Program-made: the position numbers and the translations under genes
Part shown: positions 2,934 to 12,442 of the stretch, one piece after another
How the letters are laid out: each line of letters starts with the position of its first letter
Numbering within the stretch: the first letter of the stretch is position 1
Source of the DNA: Acidobacteriota bacterium
Lineage (GTDB): Bacteria; Acidobacteriota; Vicinamibacteria; Vicinamibacterales; UBA2999
DNA length: 13,254 nt
Direction of reading: 5' to 3'
Assembly: GCA_947465645.1 (NCBI GenBank)
Contig: CANIBQ010000117.1
Location: 1-13,254, forward strand
The notes under the pieces: model-generated
What the model saw: only the letters and a program-made list of their open reading frames with translations
Told to the model about the DNA's origin: nothing
Databases searched by the model: none

Positions 2934-2991
2934 GGCGGGCCTGACAAGGCCCGCCCTACGTCTTCTGGGCCCTACGTCTTCTGGGCCTGGG
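2934..2991 (-). repeat. family A REP-like palindrome with a 16-nt head array
   Basis: Arms GGCGGGCC and GGCCCGCC around TGACAA (2934-2955) are followed by CTAC, which is a GTAG head on the minus strand (2956-2959). Upstream on that strand a second GTAG (2972-2975) and the segment GGCCCAGAAGAC repeat with a 16-nt period. The array lies just upstream of the hydrolase start. The remaining gap (2992-3077) holds nothing I recognise. Confidence 0.8.
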
Positions 2992-4084: not shown

Positions 4085-4597
4085 ATGGATCTGAAGCAGC
4101 ACATTCGGCACGTACCGGACTTCCCGAAGGCGGGGATCCTGTTTTATGACATCACGACGCTCCTGCGCGACCCGGCGGGGTTCAGGATGACGATCGACCT
4201 TCTGGCCACCCCGTACGAGGGGCAGGGGATCGATGCGGTGATTGGCATCGAGAGCCGCGGGTTTATCCTCGGGGCGGCGGTGGCCGAGCGCATCGGCGCG
4301 GGGTTCATCCCGATCCGCAAGCCCGGCAAGCTTCCGGCGAAGGTGCTCAAAGAGAGCTACGCCCTGGAATACGGCACGGACGCCCTCGAGATCCACGCGG
4401 ACGCGGTCGAACCGGCCCAGCGCGTACTCATCGTCGACGACGTGCTCGCCACGGGCGGGACGGCGGCAGCGGCGGTGAAGCTGGTACGGACGCTTGGCGG
4501 CGAGCTGCATGGGCTGGCGTTCCTGATTGAGCTCCTCGGATTGCAGGGGGCGGCGAAGCTGCCTGGTGAGAAAGTGTTTTCGGTCCTGCAGTATTAG
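4085..4597 (+). CDS. apt: adenine phosphoribosyltransferase
   Basis: A 170-residue enzyme that converts adenine and PRPP to AMP in the purine salvage pathway; the length is typical. The visible hallmarks are [13 protein letters not shown] near the N-terminus (12-24), the active-site segment ESRGF (56-60), the loop KPGKLP (79-84) and the PRPP-binding motif [13 protein letters not shown] (114-126). The ATG at 4085 gives the usual N-terminus, and only a weak AGGG precedes it. The gene starts 11 nt after the right end of a family D element. Its TAG stop touches the left arm of a family A palindrome. It is cytoplasmic, and nothing nearby suggests a purine operon. Confidence 0.97.
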
Positions 4598-4622
4598 GCG
4601 GACCTGACAAGGTCCGCCCTAC
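4597..4622 (-). repeat. family A REP-like palindrome at the apt stop codon
   Basis: Arms GGCGGACC and GGTCCGCC around TGACAA, followed by CTAC (a GTAG head on the minus strand). The first G of the left arm is the last base of the apt stop codon. Confidence 0.85.
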
Positions 4623-4640
4623 GTACGTCCGGGCCGGTGC

Positions 4641-4706
4641 GTCGGGGCCGGCTTCCGTTACGTAGGGGCCAGCTTCCGTTACGTAGGGGCCGGCTTCAGC
4701 CGGCCC
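4641..4706 (+). repeat. family B head array: two 21-nt units plus one complete palindrome
   Basis: Two 21-nt units (4641-4661, 4662-4682) each consist of GTCG or GTAG, an arm GGGGCCGGC or GGGGCCAGC (starting at the last base of the head), and TTCCGTTAC. They end in a complete element at 4683-4706: GTAG, GGGCCGGC, TTCA, GCCGGCCC. The array sits directly upstream of the tRNA promoter region. Confidence 0.85.
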
Positions 4707-4858: not shown

Positions 4859-5605
4859 ATGAAGACTAAAGAGCGGCATCATCTGAAAGAGAACGAGCTG
4901 GCGCACACGCTGGCCAGTGCGCGCGAGTTTGTGGAGTCGCGCGGGAAGCAGGTTGGCGGCGCGATTGGCATCGTGGTGCTGATTGTCGCGGTGGTCGCGG
5001 GGGTGCTCGTCTTCCGCAACCGCGCGGACACGCGTGGAGAGGAGCAGCTGGCCGAGGCGCTGGTCGCGCTCAACGCGCAGGTGGTCCCGGCGTCGGCGGC
5101 GGCCGGTGAACTGCCGGCGGCGGCGCAGATCGGTGCGACGGGGTCGTTCCAGACGGAAGAGGCCAAGCTGGCGGTGGCGTTGCCGAAGCTGAAGATGGCG
5201 GCGGACGCGTTCCCCGACACCTCCGCGGGCATCCAGGCGCGCTACCACTACGCGGCGACGCTGGCTGCGCTCGGCCGCCACGCCGACGCGGTGAAAGAGT
5301 TTGACGATGTGACGCGGCGGGCGGGGGCGGACACGCTCTACGGCCGCATGGCGTCACTCGGCAAGGCCGACACGCAGAGCAAGGCGGGGCAGATCGACGG
5401 CGCGATCGCGTCGTGGAAGGCGCTGGCCGACAAGAAGGATCCAAATCTGCCGGAAGACGCGATCCTGATGGAGCTGGGCAAGGCCTACCAGACGAAGGGC
5501 AGCCGCGAGGACGCGCGCAAGACCTTCACGCAGCTGGTCGACCAGTTCCCGACGTCGCCGTATGCCGCGGAAGCGAGAGCCGAGCTCGACACGCTGAAGG
5601 GGTAG
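4859..5605 (+). CDS. membrane-anchored TPR protein, YfgM-like
   Basis: A 248-residue protein with a short charged cytoplasmic N-terminus containing KENELAHTLASAREFVESR. One membrane helix follows (about 34-52, GGAIGIVVLIVAVVAGVLV). The rest is helical, exposed outside the inner membrane, with degenerate tetratricopeptide repeats at about 124-155, 159-192 and 200-237 (for example AILMELGKAYQTKGSREDA). The order N-terminal helix, single anchor, TPR tail resembles the YfgM family, an ancillary subunit of the SecYEG translocon linked to periplasmic chaperones; that assignment is inferred from architecture. The start is the ATG at 4859, with no strong Shine-Dalgarno site. The TAG stop overlaps a family A palindrome, and the gene converges on the solute-binding protein gene. 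Confidence 0.85.
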   Translation: MKTKERHHLKENELAHTLASAREFVESRGKQVGGAIGIVVLIVAVVAGVLVFRNRADTRGEEQLAEALVALNAQVVPASAAAGELPAAAQIGATGSFQTEEAKLAVALPKLKMAADAFPDTSAGIQARYHYAATLAALGRHADAVKEFDDVTRRAGADTLYGRMASLGKADTQSKAGQIDGAIASWKALADKKDPNLPEDAILMELGKAYQTKGSREDARKTFTQLVDQFPTSPYAAEARAELDTLKG

Positions 5606-5673
5606 GCGGGCCTGACAAGGCCCGCCCTACGAGCGCAGGAGTAGGCTGTAGCGCGGACCTTGTCAGGTCCGCG
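5605..5673. repeat. inverted pair of family A REP-like elements between convergent genes
   Basis: The first element (5605-5630) has arms GGCGGGCC and GGCCCGCC around TGACAA, with its GTAG head on the minus strand. The second (5648-5673) has a GTAG head on the plus strand, arms CGCGGACC and GGTCCGCG, and a TTGTCA loop. An extra GTAGG at 5641 precedes it. The heads face each other, and the elements fill the whole gap between the two convergent stop codons, which they touch. Confidence 0.85.
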
Positions 5674-7215
5674 TCATCGCGACTTGCTCACGTTCCGGAG
5701 CGACTCGAAATTCCCGGTCGCGTTCATCACCAACCCCCGCACGGACGGCTGGCCGACCGCGACGTTGGTCCGATTCCAGAGGCTGATGTACGGGGAGTCC
5801 TCGGCGATGATCCGCTGGGCCTCGCCGTAGTACTTCTTCCGTTCCTCCTCAGTCGCCGCGGCGCTGGCCAGGTCGATCAGCCGGTCGACCTCAGGGTTGC
5901 TGTAGCGCCCGCGATTGAAGCCGTTGGGCGGCGCCATCTGCGAGTGGAATACCCGCCGCAGGATGTCGGGGTCGACCACGGCGCCTCCGGCCCACTGCAT
6001 CTGCACCATCTGGAAGTTCCCCTTCACGACATCCGCAAACATCGTCGCGAACTCGAGCGACTGGGCGTCGACGTCGACGCCGACCTCGCGCAGGTTCTGC
6101 TGGATCACCGCAGCCTGCTGGCGGAAGTCGTCGTTGACGCCGAGCTTCAGCGTGATCCGGAAGCGGGCGAGCGGGCCATTGCCGTCGGGGTCGGGATAGC
6201 CGGCTTCGTCCAACAGGGCTTTGGCGCGGGCGGGATCGTAGGTGTAGCGCTTGATCGTCGAATCGTAGGCCCAACTCTGCGGCGGGATGAGGCCTGTCGC
6301 CACTGTCGCCAGGCCGCGGCGGAGGTAGGCGACGATCGCCTCGCGGTTGACGGCGTAGGCGAGTGCCTGCCGGACGCGCCGGTCCTTCAGGATCGGGTCC
6401 TGCGTGTTGATGCTCACGTACATGTAGTCGAGGCCCGGCGCCTCGGCGAGCGTGACACGACCGTCCTCCTTCAACTGGTGGACGATGTCGGGCGGCATGA
6501 GGTTGACGACGACGTCAACGTCGCCCTTCTTCATCTCGAGCCCGAGCATCGTGTCATCGGGAATCACGCGGACGACGATGCCGTCATTGCTCGGCGCGCC
6601 GGCGTAGTAGTCCGCGAACGGCGAGAGCACCACGCGGTCATCCACGTCGTAGCGGACGAACCGGTAGGGTCCGGTGCCGACGAGCGTCCGGTTGAAGTCG
6701 GCGCCAGCGCCAGCCGGGACGATCGGCGGGCTCACCAGCTGTATCGGGAACGCCGCGAACGGCGCCCGGAGCTTGAACTCGACGGTGTAGGCGTCGATCG
6801 CCCGCACCGAGGCGAGCGGGCGGAACGCCCCCTTGAAGGGAGACGTCGAGGCGGGGTCGATGTAGCCCTGGTAGTTGAAGACGACATCGGCGGCGGTCAG
6901 CTCGTGGCCGTCGTGGAACCTGACGCCGCGCCTGAGCGTGGCGATGTAGGTGAGCGGATCGGGATTATCGAGCCGCTCGGCCAGCATCGGCCGGACGCGC
7001 AGGTCGTCGCCGATGTCCATCAGCGAGCTGAAGATCAGATGGTTGATGCGCTGAGCGGCCTCATCGGTGGCGAAGCGTGGATCGAGGTTGTTGGGCGGCT
7101 GTCTTATGCCGACCACCAGGACGCCAGACGCGACCTCGTTGCTGGAGCCGGCGCACGAGGTCGCGACAAGGCTCAATGCACATAGCCCAATGCTCAAGGC
7201 CCAACGGACGGTCAC
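5674..7215 (-). CDS. ABC transporter solute-binding lipoprotein, family 5 (DppA/OppA-like)
   Basis: A 513-residue protein of the peptide/nickel-type periplasmic binding family, which captures oligopeptides or similar solutes for an ABC importer. The N-terminus is a signal sequence ending in ATSC, with Cys21 as the likely lipid anchor. Family landmarks are VGIRQPPNNLDPRFATDEAA (35-54), LTYIATLRRGVRFHDG (88-103) continuing into LTAADVVFNY, GTGPYRFVRYD (180-190), RQALAYAVNRE in the middle and SPYISLWNRTNVAV near the end. The start is a GTG at 7215 overlapping the mutS stop by 4 bp (GTGA), so the two genes are probably translationally coupled. No permease or ATPase genes adjoin it, so this binding protein is an orphan here. 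The TGA stop directly abuts a family A repeat. Confidence 0.93.
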   Translation of the reverse strand: MTVRWALSIGLCALSLVATSCAGSSNEVASGVLVVGIRQPPNNLDPRFATDEAAQRINHLIFSSLMDIGDDLRVRPMLAERLDNPDPLTYIATLRRGVRFHDGHELTAADVVFNYQGYIDPASTSPFKGAFRPLASVRAIDAYTVEFKLRAPFAAFPIQLVSPPIVPAGAGADFNRTLVGTGPYRFVRYDVDDRVVLSPFADYYAGAPSNDGIVVRVIPDDTMLGLEMKKGDVDVVVNLMPPDIVHQLKEDGRVTLAEAPGLDYMYVSINTQDPILKDRRVRQALAYAVNREAIVAYLRRGLATVATGLIPPQSWAYDSTIKRYTYDPARAKALLDEAGYPDPDGNGPLARFRITLKLGVNDDFRQQAAVIQQNLREVGVDVDAQSLEFATMFADVVKGNFQMVQMQWAGGAVVDPDILRRVFHSQMAPPNGFNRGRYSNPEVDRLIDLASAAATEEERKKYYGEAQRIIAEDSPYISLWNRTNVAVGQPSVRGLVMNATGNFESLRNVSKSR

Positions 7216-9962
7216 GGCGTCTCCTCTGCGAGGCGCTGCAACTCGGCGAGCAGCTCGAGGGCGGCCCGTGGCGTCGTGCTGTCGACGTCAATGTCCTTGA
7301 GACGCCGCGCGAGCTCGCTGGTCTCGGCCTGCGCGAATAGTCCCATCTGCGCTGTTGGCGTGTCGCTGGGTGCGCCGGAGAGCGTCGGCCGGCCGCCGCG
7401 GGTCAGTTCGTCGCGCTCGAGGCCGCTGAGGATCTCGCGGGCTCTGGCAACGACGGAGGCGGGCAGCCCGGCGAGGCGGGCGACCTGGATGCCGTAGCTG
7501 CGATCGGAGCGGCCGGTGACGATTTTGCGCAGGAAGATGATGTCGTCTTTCCACTCGCGCGCCGCGACGTGGGCGTTGACGACCCCCGGGGTCGTGTCGG
7601 GGAGATCGGTCAGCTCGTGATAGTGCGTGGCGAAGAGCGTCTTCGGGCGCGCCTTGCTATTGGTCGCCAGGTACTCGGCCACGGCCCAGGCGATGCTGAG
7701 GCCGTCGAAGGTCGAGGTGCCGCGGCCGATCTCGTCGAGCACGACAAGGCTTCGAGACGAGGCGGCGTGCAGGATGTTGGCGGTCTCCTGCATCTCCACC
7801 ATGAAGGTCGACTGTCCGCGGGCGATGTTGTCGGAGGCGCCGACCCTGGCAAAGATGCGGTCGACGATCGGCACCTTGGCGTCGCGTGCCGGCACAAACG
7901 ATCCGATCTGCGCGAGCAGCGGGATGAGCGCGGTCTGCCGCAGGTAGGTCGACTTGCCGCCCATGTTCGGCCCGGTCAGGATCACCAGCTGCCGTGTCGT
8001 CCCGTTCAGATCGATGTCGTTGGGCACGAACGCATCGGCGGCGTAGCGCTCGACCACCGGGTGACGGCCGTCGGTCACGACGAAGTCGTCGCCGTCGTGG
8101 ACGTGCGGCTTGGTGTAGTTGGAGAGCGACGCGGTCTCGGCCAGCCCGGCGAGGACGTCGAGCGTGGCGAGCGCCCGCGCGGTGTCCTGGATCCGTCCGG
8201 CCTCGGCAGCGACGGCGCGGCGAAGTGTTTCGAAGATCTCGAGCTCGCGCTCGAGGATCCGCTCGTCGGCGCCAAGGATCTTCTCCTCGTACTCCTTGAG
8301 CGCCGGCGTAGTGAAACGTTCGCCGCCGGCGATCGTCTGCTTGCGCTGGTAGTCGTCTGGAACCGCGCCCAGATTGCTCCTGGTGATCTCGATGTAGTAG
8401 CCGAAGACGCGGTTGAAGCGAACCTTGAGCGAGGCGATGCCGGTGCGCGCGCGCTCGCGTTCCTCCATCTCGGCGATCACCTGGCGGCCGGAGCGGCTGA
8501 TCGCCTTGATCTCGTCGAGTTCCGGGTCGACGCCGTCGCGGGTGAAGCCGCCTTCGCGGGTCAGCGCCGGCGGTTCGTCGATGAGCGTTCGCTCGACCAG
8601 ATCACGGATGTCGGTGAGGTCGTCCAGTTCGGCGAGCAGGCTCTGAAGGAGCGGCGCCTGCACCTCCTGCAGGATCGACTTGACCCGAGGCACAGCGGCC
8701 AGCGACAGGCGCAGCGCCACCAGGTCGCGCGGGTTGGCTGAGCCAAGCGCGGCGCGGGCGACCAGCCGCTCGAGGTCGTGCACGCTCTTGAGCAGCTCGC
8801 GGAACTTGCCGCGGTCGGTGGCGCGGAATGCGAGTTCCTCGACGGCGTCGAGGCGATCGCGGATGCGTTCGAGCGCGTAGAGCGGGCGGAGGAGCCAGCT
8901 GCGCAGCATCCGCCCGGCCATCGACGTGACCGTGCGGTCGATCTCGTGGAGGAGCGAGCCTTGCGGCCCGCCTTCACTCCCAACCACGACCTCGAGATGC
9001 TTGAGCGTAATCGGGTCGATGATGAGACAGTCGGCAGAGGTCTTGTAGCTCAACGCCCGCACGTGCGCGAGGTCGGCCTTCTGGGTGTCGCGCAGGTAGG
9101 CGACCAGTCCGCCGGCCGCCTGCACCGCGGCGACGCGCCCATCGAGACCGAACCCCTCGAGGCCGTGCGTCTTCAACTGGTCGAGCAGTGTTCGCCGCGC
9201 CGCTTCCGGTTCGAAGCTCCAGGCGTCGACGGTCGTGACCGGAATCTGCAGGCGGGCGATCTCGGGGAGCCGGGTGGCGATATCGCTCTCCGCGGGAACC
9301 ACGATCTCGCGCGGACGCAGGACGGAGATCTCGTCGGCGAGCGCGGCCAGACCATCACCGCGATATTCCGCGGTGGTGAATTCGCCGGTCGACAGATCGA
9401 TCAGCGCCACGCCGTAGACGCCAGCCGGGCCTGACAAGGCCCGGCCTACAGGAGGAGCAGAGTCTCCCGTAGAGCGGACCGTGGCATCCGTAGAGCGGAC
9501 CGTGGCATCTGTAGAGCGGACCTTGTCAGGTCCGCTGCCAGGTCCGCTGTCGGGTCCCACGACAGCCATCAGAAACGACGGCTCACGCGCCTCGAGGTGC
9601 CCCGCATCCGTCAGCGTGCCTGGCGAGACGACGCGGACGACCTCGCGTTTGACGAGCCCCTTGGCGTTCTTCGGGTCCTCGACCTGCTCGCACAGTGCGA
9701 CGCGGAAGCCCTTGCGGACCAGCTTGCCGAGGTAGCCCTCGAGCGCGTGGTAGGGGATGCCGCACATCGGGATGCCGTGGCCGCCGGCGTCCTTGGAGCG
9801 CGAGGTCAGGGTGAGATCGAGCGCGCGCGCGGTGACCAGCGCGTCTTCGTAGAAGATTTCGTAGAAGTCACCCATGCGGAAGAACACGATGGCGTCGCGG
9901 TACTGCCGCTTCGCTTCGAGGTACTGCCGCATCGCGGGGCTTGGAGTCGCCGTGGATGACAT
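7212..9962 (-). CDS. mutS: DNA mismatch repair protein MutS with an in-frame repeat insertion
   Basis: A 916-residue MutS from the ATG at 9962; a GTG at 9977 lies inside a family D repeat and is less likely. MutS binds mismatches as a dimer and recruits MutL. The mismatch-wedge motif F33-Y34-E35 is in MGDFYEIF, Walker A GPNMGGKST is at about 664-672, the Walker B region LDEIGRGTST starts at 742, and STFMVEMQETANIL lies between them. All domains look intact and uninterrupted. The oddity is about 45 extra residues at 136-180 (DNA 9423-9557), between the strand ending SFLMAVV and the strand GVYGVALIDLSTGEF at the start of the connector domain, where E. coli has a short loop. The insert is translated palindromic repeat and contains three VRST units, two followed by DAT. 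The excess over E. coli MutS (853 aa) is roughly the insert plus terminal differences. The gene overlaps the solute-binding protein gene and is divergent from tsaB. Confidence 0.97.
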   Translation of the reverse strand: MSSTATPSPAMRQYLEAKRQYRDAIVFFRMGDFYEIFYEDALVTARALDLTLTSRSKDAGGHGIPMCGIPYHALEGYLGKLVRKGFRVALCEQVEDPKNAKGLVKREVVRVVSPGTLTDAGHLEAREPSFLMAVVGPDSGPGSGPDKVRSTDATVRSTDATVRSTGDSAPPVGRALSGPAGVYGVALIDLSTGEFTTAEYRGDGLAALADEISVLRPREIVVPAESDIATRLPEIARLQIPVTTVDAWSFEPEAARRTLLDQLKTHGLEGFGLDGRVAAVQAAGGLVAYLRDTQKADLAHVRALSYKTSADCLIIDPITLKHLEVVVGSEGGPQGSLLHEIDRTVTSMAGRMLRSWLLRPLYALERIRDRLDAVEELAFRATDRGKFRELLKSVHDLERLVARAALGSANPRDLVALRLSLAAVPRVKSILQEVQAPLLQSLLAELDDLTDIRDLVERTLIDEPPALTREGGFTRDGVDPELDEIKAISRSGRQVIAEMEERERARTGIASLKVRFNRVFGYYIEITRSNLGAVPDDYQRKQTIAGGERFTTPALKEYEEKILGADERILERELEIFETLRRAVAAEAGRIQDTARALATLDVLAGLAETASLSNYTKPHVHDGDDFVVTDGRHPVVERYAADAFVPNDIDLNGTTRQLVILTGPNMGGKSTYLRQTALIPLLAQIGSFVPARDAKVPIVDRIFARVGASDNIARGQSTFMVEMQETANILHAASSRSLVVLDEIGRGTSTFDGLSIAWAVAEYLATNSKARPKTLFATHYHELTDLPDTTPGVVNAHVAAREWKDDIIFLRKIVTGRSDRSYGIQVARLAGLPASVVARAREILSGLERDELTRGGRPTLSGAPSDTPTAQMGLFAQAETSELARRLKDIDVDSTTPRAALELLAELQRLAEETP
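9423..9557. repeat. family A repeat cluster inside mutS
   Basis: The cluster holds a complete element (9424-9449; arms GCCGGGCC and GGCCCGGC around TGACAA, GTAG head on the minus strand). Facing it on the plus strand are two 21-nt units (9469-9489, 9490-9510: GTAG, AGCGGACC, GTGGCATCC or GTGGCATCT). A complete element follows (9511-9536: GTAG, AGCGGACC, TTGTCA, GGTCCGCT), then stray right arms GGTCCGCT and GGGTCCC. The total is about 135 bp, a multiple of three, without a stop in the mutS frame. Confidence 0.9.
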
Positions 9963-9971
9963 GAGTGTCTG

Positions 9972-10055
9972 AACCACGAAGGCACGAGGATCCGGAAGGA
10001 CACGAAACTAAACAGGGGTTTCGTGATCTTGGCGATCATCGTGAACTTCGTGGTT
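9972..10055. repeat. family D dispersed element, second copy
   Basis: The mutS-tsaB gap is occupied by an 84-bp element with the same 10-bp ends as at 3961-4073: AACCACGAAG (9972-9981) and CTTCGTGGTT (10046-10055). Inside, GGACACGAAAC and GGTTTCGTGATC form further partial inverted repeats. Confidence 0.8.
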
Positions 10056-10073: not shown

Positions 10074-10880
10074 ATGCTGATTCTTGCCCTCGACACGACG
10101 ACGCGCGCGGGAAGCTGTGCGCTGGCGCGGGACGGGCGCGTGATTCTTGAAGAGGGGAGCGACGTGTCGCTGCGGCCGGCGGCGCGCCTGCCGGGCGATC
10201 TGATGGCGCTCCTCGAGCACGCCGGGGTGAGGCTGGACGAGGTCGACCTGTTCGCCGTCGCCACCGGCCCAGGTTCATTCACCGGCCTCCGGATCGGCAT
10301 CGCGACGATGCAGGGGCTGGCGTTTGCGGCAGGGAAGCCGCTCATCGGCGTGTCCGGGTTCGATGCGCTGGCCGCTACCTGTAGGGCGGACCTTTACGGT
10401 CCGACTGGCGCGCCTGATAAGGCGCGCCCTGCAAGAGTCGCCACCTGGGTCGATGCCTGGCGCGGCGAGGTCTACGCGGCGCTCTACGAACCGGGCGCGG
10501 CGGCGCCGGAGCCTGTTGTTGCTCTTCCGGCTGACTTGCTGGAGCGGTACGACGCACGGTCTGGCGGACCTGACCCGACTGCGCCGAAGGCTTCGTCGGG
10601 GCAAGCCAGTGTCCGCCCTACAGGTGGAACGGGTGAGGTAATCACATTCGTCGGGGACGGGGCGGCGACCTATCGCGATCTGATTCTGGCGACGCTCGGG
10701 GATCGGGCGCGGATTGCGGAGCCGCCGGCGCCGCTCATTGCGGGCGTCATCGCCCAGCTCGCCACGCGAGCCGCGGAGGCAGGCGAGTTGCCGCCGCCGC
10801 ACGCGATCAGGCCGCTCTATGTCCGCCGCCCGGACGTGGAGATTGTCCGAGACGCGCCGCCGACCAGAGACAGGGCGTGA
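10074..10880 (+). CDS. tsaB: tRNA threonylcarbamoyladenosine biosynthesis protein TsaB
   Basis: A 268-residue TsaB, the ASKHA-fold partner of TsaD needed to make the t6A37 modification of ANN-decoding tRNAs. Landmarks are MLILALDTTTRAGSCAL (1-17), GPGSFTGLRIG (65-75), KPLIGVSGFDAL (88-99) and the VDAWRGEVYAALY strand-turn (126-138). The start is the ATG at 10074 because it gives the canonical MLILALDT N-terminus; a longer reading from 10023 runs through a repeat. Two segments absent from E. coli TsaB are translated repeats: residues about 103-120 (CRADLYGPTGAPDKARPA) and 163-184. Both fall where loops are expected, so the fold may survive. rimI follows with a 4-bp overlap (GTGA), a common pairing. 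Confidence 0.95.
   Translation: MLILALDTTTRAGSCALARDGRVILEEGSDVSLRPAARLPGDLMALLEHAGVRLDEVDLFAVATGPGSFTGLRIGIATMQGLAFAAGKPLIGVSGFDALAATCRADLYGPTGAPDKARPARVATWVDAWRGEVYAALYEPGAAAPEPVVALPADLLERYDARSGGPDPTAPKASSGQASVRPTGGTGEVITFVGDGAATYRDLILATLGDRARIAEPPAPLIAGVIAQLATRAAEAGELPPPHAIRPLYVRRPDVEIVRDAPPTRDRA
10381..10432. repeat. inverted pair of family A repeats inside tsaB (first insertion)
   Basis: A plus-strand element (10381-10403) has a GTAG head, arm GGCGGACC, loop TTTAC and right arm GGTCCG. It is followed tail to tail by a minus-strand element (10407-10432) with arms GGCGCGCC and GGCGCGCC around TGATAA and head GCAG. The pair is read through in frame as part of TsaB and resembles a REPIN (two REPs in inverse orientation). 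Confidence 0.85.
10562..10621 (-). repeat. family A-related element with nested hairpin inside tsaB (second insertion)
   Basis: Outer arms GGCGGACCTGAC and GTCCGCC are followed by CTAC (GTAG head on the minus strand, 10618-10621). Between them lies another inverted repeat, CCCGAC (10574-10579) with GTCGGG (10595-10600), around GAAGGCTTC. It is translated in frame as about 20 residues of TsaB. Confidence 0.75.
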
Positions 10881-11736: not shown

Positions 11737-12378
11737 ATGCGCATCGACCCTGCCGGGCTGCCGTTCATCGGTGGCTCGCTCCTGCTCGCCGTCGTGACCA
11801 CGCTCTGGGGCGGCTGGGCTTACGCGTCGCTCTTCATTGTCTGTGCGCTCTTTTTTCTCTTCTTTTTCCGTGACCCGCATCGCGTGGTCACGGCGGGCGA
11901 CCGCGCGGTGCTGTCGCCCGCTGACGGGCGGGTGATGGTGGCGGGTGCGCCGACCGGGCAGGCCTTTCCGAAGGGCACCTGGAAGCAGATCAGTATTTTC
12001 CTGTCGCCGATGGACGTGCACGTGAACCGGATGCCGATTGGCGGACGGGTGACGCACGTGGAGTACCATCCCGGCCGCTTCCTGCCGGCCTACAAGGCGG
12101 AGGCTGGGGACCTGAACGAGTACACCGAGGTCTGGATCGACCACGGCGGCCAGAGGATTGTCGTCCGGCAAATCGTCGGCATCCTGGCGCGGCGGATTGT
12201 CTGCCGGACGGCCGTCGGCGCCGAGGTGAAGGCGGGCGACCGCTACGGCGTGATGAAGTTCGGCTCGCGCATGGACCTGTTCCTGCCGCCGGATGCGGTG
12301 ATCAAGGTGAAGGTGGGCGACAAGGTCAGCGCGGCGGTGACGGTGATTGCGGAGCTCGCGGATGTCAGGCAAAGCTGA
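11737..12378 (+). CDS. psd: phosphatidylserine decarboxylase proenzyme (short, archaeal type)
   Basis: A 213-residue proenzyme of the short type of phosphatidylserine decarboxylase, which makes phosphatidylethanolamine at the inner membrane. Residues about 8-28 and 30-44 (SLFIVCALFFLFFF) are hydrophobic membrane segments. Then come FRDPHR (44-49), VLSPADGRV (58-66), FLSPMDVHVNR (88-98) and the maturation site MKFGSRMDLFLP (173-184). Self-cleavage between Gly176 and Ser177 would turn Ser177 into the pyruvoyl cofactor. The C-terminal part matches the lipoyl-like fold of the family. The stop codon TGA is the centre of a family C palindrome, so the last residues (RQS) come from the repeat. pssA, the preceding enzyme in the pathway, follows 75 bp downstream in the same direction, indicating an operon. 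Confidence 0.95.
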   Translation: MRIDPAGLPFIGGSLLLAVVTTLWGGWAYASLFIVCALFFLFFFRDPHRVVTAGDRAVLSPADGRVMVAGAPTGQAFPKGTWKQISIFLSPMDVHVNRMPIGGRVTHVEYHPGRFLPAYKAEAGDLNEYTEVWIDHGGQRIVVRQIVGILARRIVCRTAVGAEVKAGDRYGVMKFGSRMDLFLPPDAVIKVKVGDKVSAAVTVIAELADVRQS

Positions 12379-12442
12379 AGCTTTGCCGCACGTTCGCAGA
12401 GCGATACAGCCGTCTCCTGTGGGATAAAGCTTTAGCTTTGCC
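12368..12442. repeat. inverted pair of family C palindromes between psd and pssA
   Basis: The first palindrome (12368-12387) has arms GGCAAAGCT and AGCTTTGCC around GA; its centre TGA is the psd stop codon. The second (12425-12442) reads in the opposite orientation, TAAAGCTTTAGC then TTTGCC. Together they fill most of the 75-bp gap between the two phospholipid genes and resemble a REPIN. Confidence 0.85.

Follow-up and report, generated by a model that had tools for sequence, protein, structure and literature searches.

The window, the whole 13,254-nucleotide stretch of Acidobacteriota DNA that was analysed, carries mutS on its minus strand at 7212-9977. The gene is a single open frame of 921 aa with five MutS Pfam domains, and its best Foldseek match is E. 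coli MutS. Within it lies an in-frame insert of 46 residues (residues 141-186, codons 9420-9557 of the minus strand), about 42 above the empty turn, as delimited by codon positions, alignment with 120 homologues and the pLDDT of an AF2 model. The insert sits between FLMAVV and VYGVALIDLSTGEF, and the MutS_II Pfam match begins at residue 186. The 138-bp cluster that encodes it is a mosaic of 21-28 bp units. Full-element scanning located a complete family A REP (GTAGGCCGGGCCTTGTCAGGCCCGGC) at 9424-9451 (minus) and another at 9511-9536 (plus), which closes an array of two 21-bp heads at 9469-9489 and 9490-9510 (both plus). These heads, consisting of GTAG and the 5' arm without the 3' arm, are exact tandem copies of each other, and a short repeated 3' arm fragment (TGCCAGGTCCGC..) follows at 9536-9550 (plus, end approximate). 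A preliminary description of this DNA had reported an in-frame palindromic cluster with one complete minus-strand element and a plus-strand head array ending in a complete element, adding about 45 residues with three VRST units to an otherwise intact mutS. Its coordinates hold, the three VRST units are present, and the frame is open throughout. At the RNA level the insert stretch folds at -88.1 kcal/mol, compared with a mean of -61.7 kcal/mol for 200 shuffles (z -6.3).

The same loop was found in a second protein entry, P0001 (a 90% protein cluster), which is 100% identical over 98% of the query and is found on two contigs, the longest of which (15,505 bp) exceeds the window. Since P0001 occurs on two contigs and many other sequences likewise have a filled loop, the insert is probably not an artefact of this contig. 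An intein or intron was put aside by judgement, from the size of the insert and its open, REP-made sequence.

Family A is not confined to mutS. With GTAGGGCGGRCCTTGTCAGGYCCGCC and up to three mismatches, six matches were found in the 13-kb window, two of them within the mutS insert, and none in 200 shuffles. The others are a copy at 2934-2959 (minus), where no gene was called; copies at 4597-4622 and 5605-5630 (both minus), which overlap by one base the stop codons of a phosphoribosyltransferase gene (4085-4597) and a TPR gene (4859-5605), respectively; and a copy at 5648-5673 (plus) adjoining the stop codon of an SBP_bac_5 gene (5674-7215). A looser scan for the 12-base head (two mismatches) gave 13 matches in the window against a mean of 6.25 (range 2 to 11) in 20 rough shuffles; this is above the shuffles but the scan is too loose, and the evidence therefore rests on the full-element scan. 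The elements have the features of GTAG-class REPs, namely GTAG at one end beside a short hairpin and occurrence as singles and inverted pairs (5605/5648, 9424/9511 and 10381/10408), mostly at gene 3' ends, as with the copies at 4597, 5605 and 5648. A family A element is open in four of its six reading frames. Among relatives, 16 of 162 genomes contain a family A match with up to three mismatches.

Other repeats accompany family A in the window. A second head array at 4640-4706 consists of 2.8 copies of a 21-bp unit (consensus CGTAGGGGCCGGCTTCCGTTA) and closes with a complete REP of another family, so that its architecture and period are the same as those of the mutS array. Arrays of 21 bp with a complete hairpin are also present at L216 (1728-1771) and L241 (6600-6641), which suggests that such head arrays are a general mode of growth, perhaps by slippage at the hairpin. 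A third palindromic family, GCAAAGCTNAAGCTTTGC, occurs in pairs at 1328-1381 and 12366-12442, and a GTCCGGCTGAAGCCGGAC hairpin at 872-889 directly follows the stop codon of an ORF that, from reading its sequence, resembles an ABC transporter gene.

Sequence comparison places the insert between E. coli MutS residues of about 140 and 143, inside the connector domain (residues 128-266; PMC4521584), where the preliminary description had put it. A first AF2 model, built from 36 close homologues, was poor (pLDDT 48). A second one, built from diverse MutS sequences, reached a mean pLDDT of 86.9 and a pTM of 0.83, and matched E. coli MutS with a TM (target) of 0.94. Its segments with pLDDT below 50 are residues 1-9, 150-184 (the insert, which lies between strands at 135-140 and 188-194) and 857-884. 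Both internal low-confidence segments fall at places where inserts are frequent among the window protein and its 120 aligned homologues, the first at the richest place and the second at the next richest. According to this model, the insert is a disordered loop between two connector-domain strands of an ordinary MutS. Pfam, a motif check, AF2 and Foldseek agree on a standard fold with domains I to V and the nucleotide-binding motifs intact.

To place the insert among homologues, the window protein was aligned with the best 120 of 7992 matches, and the loop was measured as the segment PGTLTD..STGEF; the order, Vicinamibacterales, was judged from the names of close homologues. Among these 121 proteins the loop ranges from 39 to 85 aa, about 40 being the empty state, and it is 82 aa in the window and P0001. 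In the window's clade (six rows, support 99) the four other members, from the same best 120 of 7992, have loops of 47, 40, 39 and 40 aa, so the closest relatives lack the insert. Because these four loops are near-empty, the insert most likely arose on the branch leading to the window, and the near-empty sister sequences rule out a conserved ancestral segment. Loops of 39-45 aa were found at 39 loci from other phyla or unnamed bacteria, 32 of them with exactly 40 aa; from this near-constancy outside, the empty loop is likely the ancestral state.

A reading of mutS as a special, single hit does not fit the alignment. Counting between core columns, the turn after residue 142 has eight or more extra residues in 61 of the 121 proteins, window and P0001 included, and by the same criterion the next places are residue 885 (12/121) and residue 232 (9/121), all among the best 120 of 7992. 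With a filled loop defined, arbitrarily, as 48 aa or more, 59 of these 121 loops are filled, and a FastTree phylogeny of 848 columns, from which the loop was excluded, needs at least 20 changes between filled and empty, a count that does not separate gain from loss. The fillings differ. Typed from peptides alone, with types defined after the loops had been seen, the loops of the 120 homologues contain apparent translated REPs such as GPDKARPT and VGRALSGPP (family A), ARTLSGPR (a variant), DLKVGPY and others, and some are filled by 7-bp tandem repeats. Four strict REP peptide motifs occur in 40 of the 121 loops and 34 of the 59 long ones, and the remaining 101,142 residues of these proteins contain no match. 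Of the long loops, 13 of 59 fall outside every peptide type (best 120 of 7992).

At the DNA level, a second set of 88 genomes of the order of genome G001 was collected separately, with some overlap (P0075 and L084 share a loop). It contains 30 loops of 48 aa or more, five of which were chosen for their repetitive look and searched in their own genomes. All five match repeats of their own genome, with no match for the reversed pattern in that genome in any case. The G003 loop (GGCGGGTCTTTAGACCCGCC) gave 75 strand matches with at most one mismatch, one of them in mutS, some palindromic places being counted twice. The G025 loop (GTGGCGCGGCCCTTTCAGGGCCGC) gave 118 matches with at most three mismatches and one exact copy in mutS; one TAG is listed inside the long mutS match. 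The reversed G025 pattern, as a control, matched once each in G085 and G030. In G099, GGCAGCGGGCAGCGGGCAG gave 156 overlapping matches, some in mutS, and is a 7-bp tandem repeat, not a REP. The G030 pattern has 15 matches, one exact in mutS and 14 others with two mismatches, and the G085 pattern, the weakest case, has 12, one exact in mutS, two with one mismatch and the rest with more. In a hairpin test on these five loops G003 passed, G025 was borderline (p 0.025), and G030, G085 and G099 failed.

Over all 30 long loops, a hairpin beyond the gene background (p<=0.02) was present in only three, a sign that many are either no REPs or have ceased to be so; most long loops in this wider genome set are not recognisable REPs. 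The 27 loops without a significant hairpin, together with the exact 21-bp tandem copies in the window's mutS, are what would be expected if the loop had grown by local slippage or duplication of GC-rich coding DNA that merely resembles REPs. For many other long loops that explanation may hold. The window's units, however, match a family with copies outside genes, for which none is expected by chance, and in G003 and G025 the loop belongs to a repeat family that is spread through the respective genome. Slippage is disfavoured for the window and is very improbable as the explanation of its insert.

That most large inserts are confined to a single turn could also mean that this part of mutS has a sequence or hairpin to which the transposase is drawn, in which case the hot spot would be one of entry and not of tolerance. 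We regard such a target preference as unlikely. By eye, the distance from the strand to the start of the REP peptide varies from about 1 to 10 residues and the inverted pair is found in either order, and in G099 the same turn is filled by 7-bp tandem arrays.

REPs were also found in the coding sequence of tsaB (10074-10880, plus), assigned by a Pfam TsaD family match and homologue alignment. Its frame is intact, with REPs in two loops. Loop 1 contains an inverted pair of degenerate family A REPs at 10381-10434 (10381-10405 plus, 10408-10434 minus), too degenerate for the three-mismatch scan. Loop 2 contains a family A REP at 10559-10624 (minus) that is split by a further piece of about 11 extra residues. 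For comparison, the window TsaB was aligned with the best 120 of 6540 matches, many of which are named TsaB by their sources. In this set of the best 120 of 6540, five or more extra residues occur in 65 of 121 proteins at loop 1 and in 47 of 121 at loop 2, and strict family A motifs occur in six of 121, in one case (P0216) near the C-terminus; the window's own copies have degenerated too far to be among them. The closest TsaB among them apart from the window itself, P0122, has an unsplit GGPDKVRPT in loop 2 and no REP in loop 1. Because the window's REP is split by about 11 residues where that of P0122 is uninterrupted, loop 2 in the window is probably a nested insertion into a coding REP.

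Further carriers were found in relatives with a coding test of our own, a heuristic based on GC content by codon position. Over 40 stretches of G003, nine of the 49 copies tested are in frame within ORFs that have a coding signal on both sides; L221, which had neither coding support nor a Pfam match, was excluded from this set. The carriers are GH4, an FAD/halogenase-like protein, an RNase H-like exonuclease, MutS2, thiolase, a ComM-like Mg-chelatase, MetH and two kinases. Four of the nine inserts are inside a Pfam domain and five in linkers or edges, and all nine read GGSLDPP, GGSSDPP or GGSKDPP. In one kinase (L245:2012-4060:+, residue 183) the REP is in frame in the protein kinase domain just before the DFG motif, in the context NVKLAIG-SGGSLDPP-NVKVLDFG. 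In MutS2 (L227:2037-4457:-) the in-frame REP is between MutS_V and an SH3-like segment, and G003 thus carries REPs in both mutS and MutS2. Over 20 stretches of G002, eight of 29 copies are in frame, in seven ORFs including SMC, a carboxyltransferase and an FdhE-like protein, six of the seven having Pfam matches. In the family A genomes G096, G105 and G112 (15 stretches), only one of 20 tested copies is in frame, in UbiE.

A candidate source of mobility is the Y1 transposase (RAYT, PF01797); of 162 genomes from the order of G001, 104 contain it. In G099, a PF01797 gene (L270:1616-2218) lies among GCGGCGCGGACCTTTCAGGTCCGC arrays, and in a second one (L274:2623-3210) the Y1 domain lies between GTGGGGGCCGGCTTTAGCCGGCCC elements that face each other. 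Both repeats are close to REPs of the window, namely family A and the family at 4680-4706. These two loci link REP and RAYT in the relative G099, and the same link would apply to the window. Five of the six PF01797 matches of G099 were examined, and the three others had no such REPs nearby; 15 RAYT loci of various genomes, with hairpins judged by eye, showed no GTAG REP of these families, and no RAYT flanked by the same REPs was seen within the window.

Whether the loop affects the protein was approached through branch lengths. In 20 pairs of filled and empty MutS sequences, connected by paths without a common branch, the filled branch was the longer in 10, and for the window's pair the values were 0.084 (filled) and 0.081 (empty). 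From this even split, neither decay nor accelerated change of filled MutS is seen in the 20 pairs, a comparison that measures MutS and not the genome-wide mutation rate. The catalytic motifs are kept in the window protein, and MutS with the insert most likely still works. The mutator reading finds no rate signal in the MutS branches, and nothing was found in the branches (10/20, a measure on MutS, not on mutation rate) or the motifs that points to the altered function or raised mutation rate proposed in the preliminary description.

A loop of adaptive value would alter MutS activity, through MutL contact or clamp movement, and tune the mutation rate, the hot spot then reflecting selection. Movement of the connector domain builds the MutL interface (PMC4521584), and the loop lies in that domain. 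Di Nocera et al. hold that it is hardly by chance that repair genes contain REPs (PMC3733652), and the MutS2 of G003 is hit as well. On the other hand, filled branches are longer in only half of the pairs, unrelated sequences fill the turn, and REPs are also found in TsaB, thiolase, MetH, kinases and other proteins. The MutL-contact residues Q211 and Q212 (PMC4521584) are elsewhere, a statement on sequence position and not on spatial distance. Taken together, we judge adaptive tuning to be quite unlikely.

The closest described systems are intragenic GTAG REPs (Di Nocera et al., 2013, PMC3733652). Like those of the window, they are GTAG-tagged hairpins that occur as singles, dimers and clusters, also inside ORFs and often in DNA repair genes. 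In Thauera and R. conorii such clusters code for 43-82 aa, and two Xanthomonas have a hit in recB at about the same site (PMC3733652). REP ends that supply a TAG stop to neighbouring ORFs (PMC3733652) resemble the situation at 4597 and 5605 in the window, where a REP overlaps the stop codon by a base. The main text of that paper contains neither mutS nor mismatch repair and names Acidobacteria once, and the portions considered here do not describe a single turn that was filled repeatedly by different repeat families within an order. REP arrays associated with RAYT share with the window the GTAG head, the short stem, inverted pairs and location at gene 3' ends, but are normally extragenic, whereas the mutS and tsaB copies are intragenic.

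Rickettsia palindromic elements (RPE), which the preliminary description had named as the precedent, are a more distant parallel than GTAG REPs in repair genes (PMC3733652). They are likewise palindromic repeats translated within conserved genes, and an RPE-bearing guanylate kinase is active with changed substrate affinity (PMC2229807). However, RPE are 105-146 bp long with a long stem-loop and terminal inverted repeats (PMC2229807), compared with window units of 21-28 bp, and RPE-4 and RPE-6, which are short, are assigned to the CGTC repeats, not to GTAG (PMC3733652). Besides the paper of Di Nocera et al., we recognised nothing similar in the literature on REPs or palindromes in coding genes, mutS, Vicinamibacteria and Acidobacteriota, surveyed mostly by title and with few subscription papers. 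Intragenic REPs, also in repair genes, have been known since 2013; the recurrent hot spot in one turn, its occurrence in this order, and the nested and tandem-head forms are new.

We consider it highly probable that a cluster of GTAG-type REPs, probably moved by RAYT, landed in a tolerant turn of MutS, where it is translated as a disordered loop in a protein that likely works. The elements would be non-autonomous and would have been inserted through the action of a Y1 transposase into the turn of the first beta hairpin of the connector domain. The added sequence would be translated as a hydrophilic, disordered loop, and its presence would be neutral. The insert survives because the turn tolerates length, because family A is open in four of six frames, and because the net addition of 42 codons, of which the two extra heads contribute seven each, keeps the phase. 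The same tolerance of length would make the turn a recurrent landing place in Vicinamibacterales.

The case is special neither to this genome nor to mutS; previously, REPs in repair genes were a curiosity of a few such genes. One turn of a near-universal protein, apparently filled many separate times by unrelated repeats, provides a replicated natural experiment. With it, one can ask directly whether REPs that insert into repair genes are tolerated or are selected for, and the branch comparison points to tolerance. More broadly, and as a tentative view that we hold with somewhat less than even confidence, RAYT-driven REPs may be a standing source of protein evolution in Vicinamibacterales. Tolerant turns of housekeeping proteins such as MutS, TsaB, MetH, kinases and SMC would serve as repeated landing pads, in which repeat families insert, nest and grow by duplication of 21-bp (7-codon) heads. 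Loop length would then be set by repeat dynamics, and the connector turn of MutS would be the clearest example.
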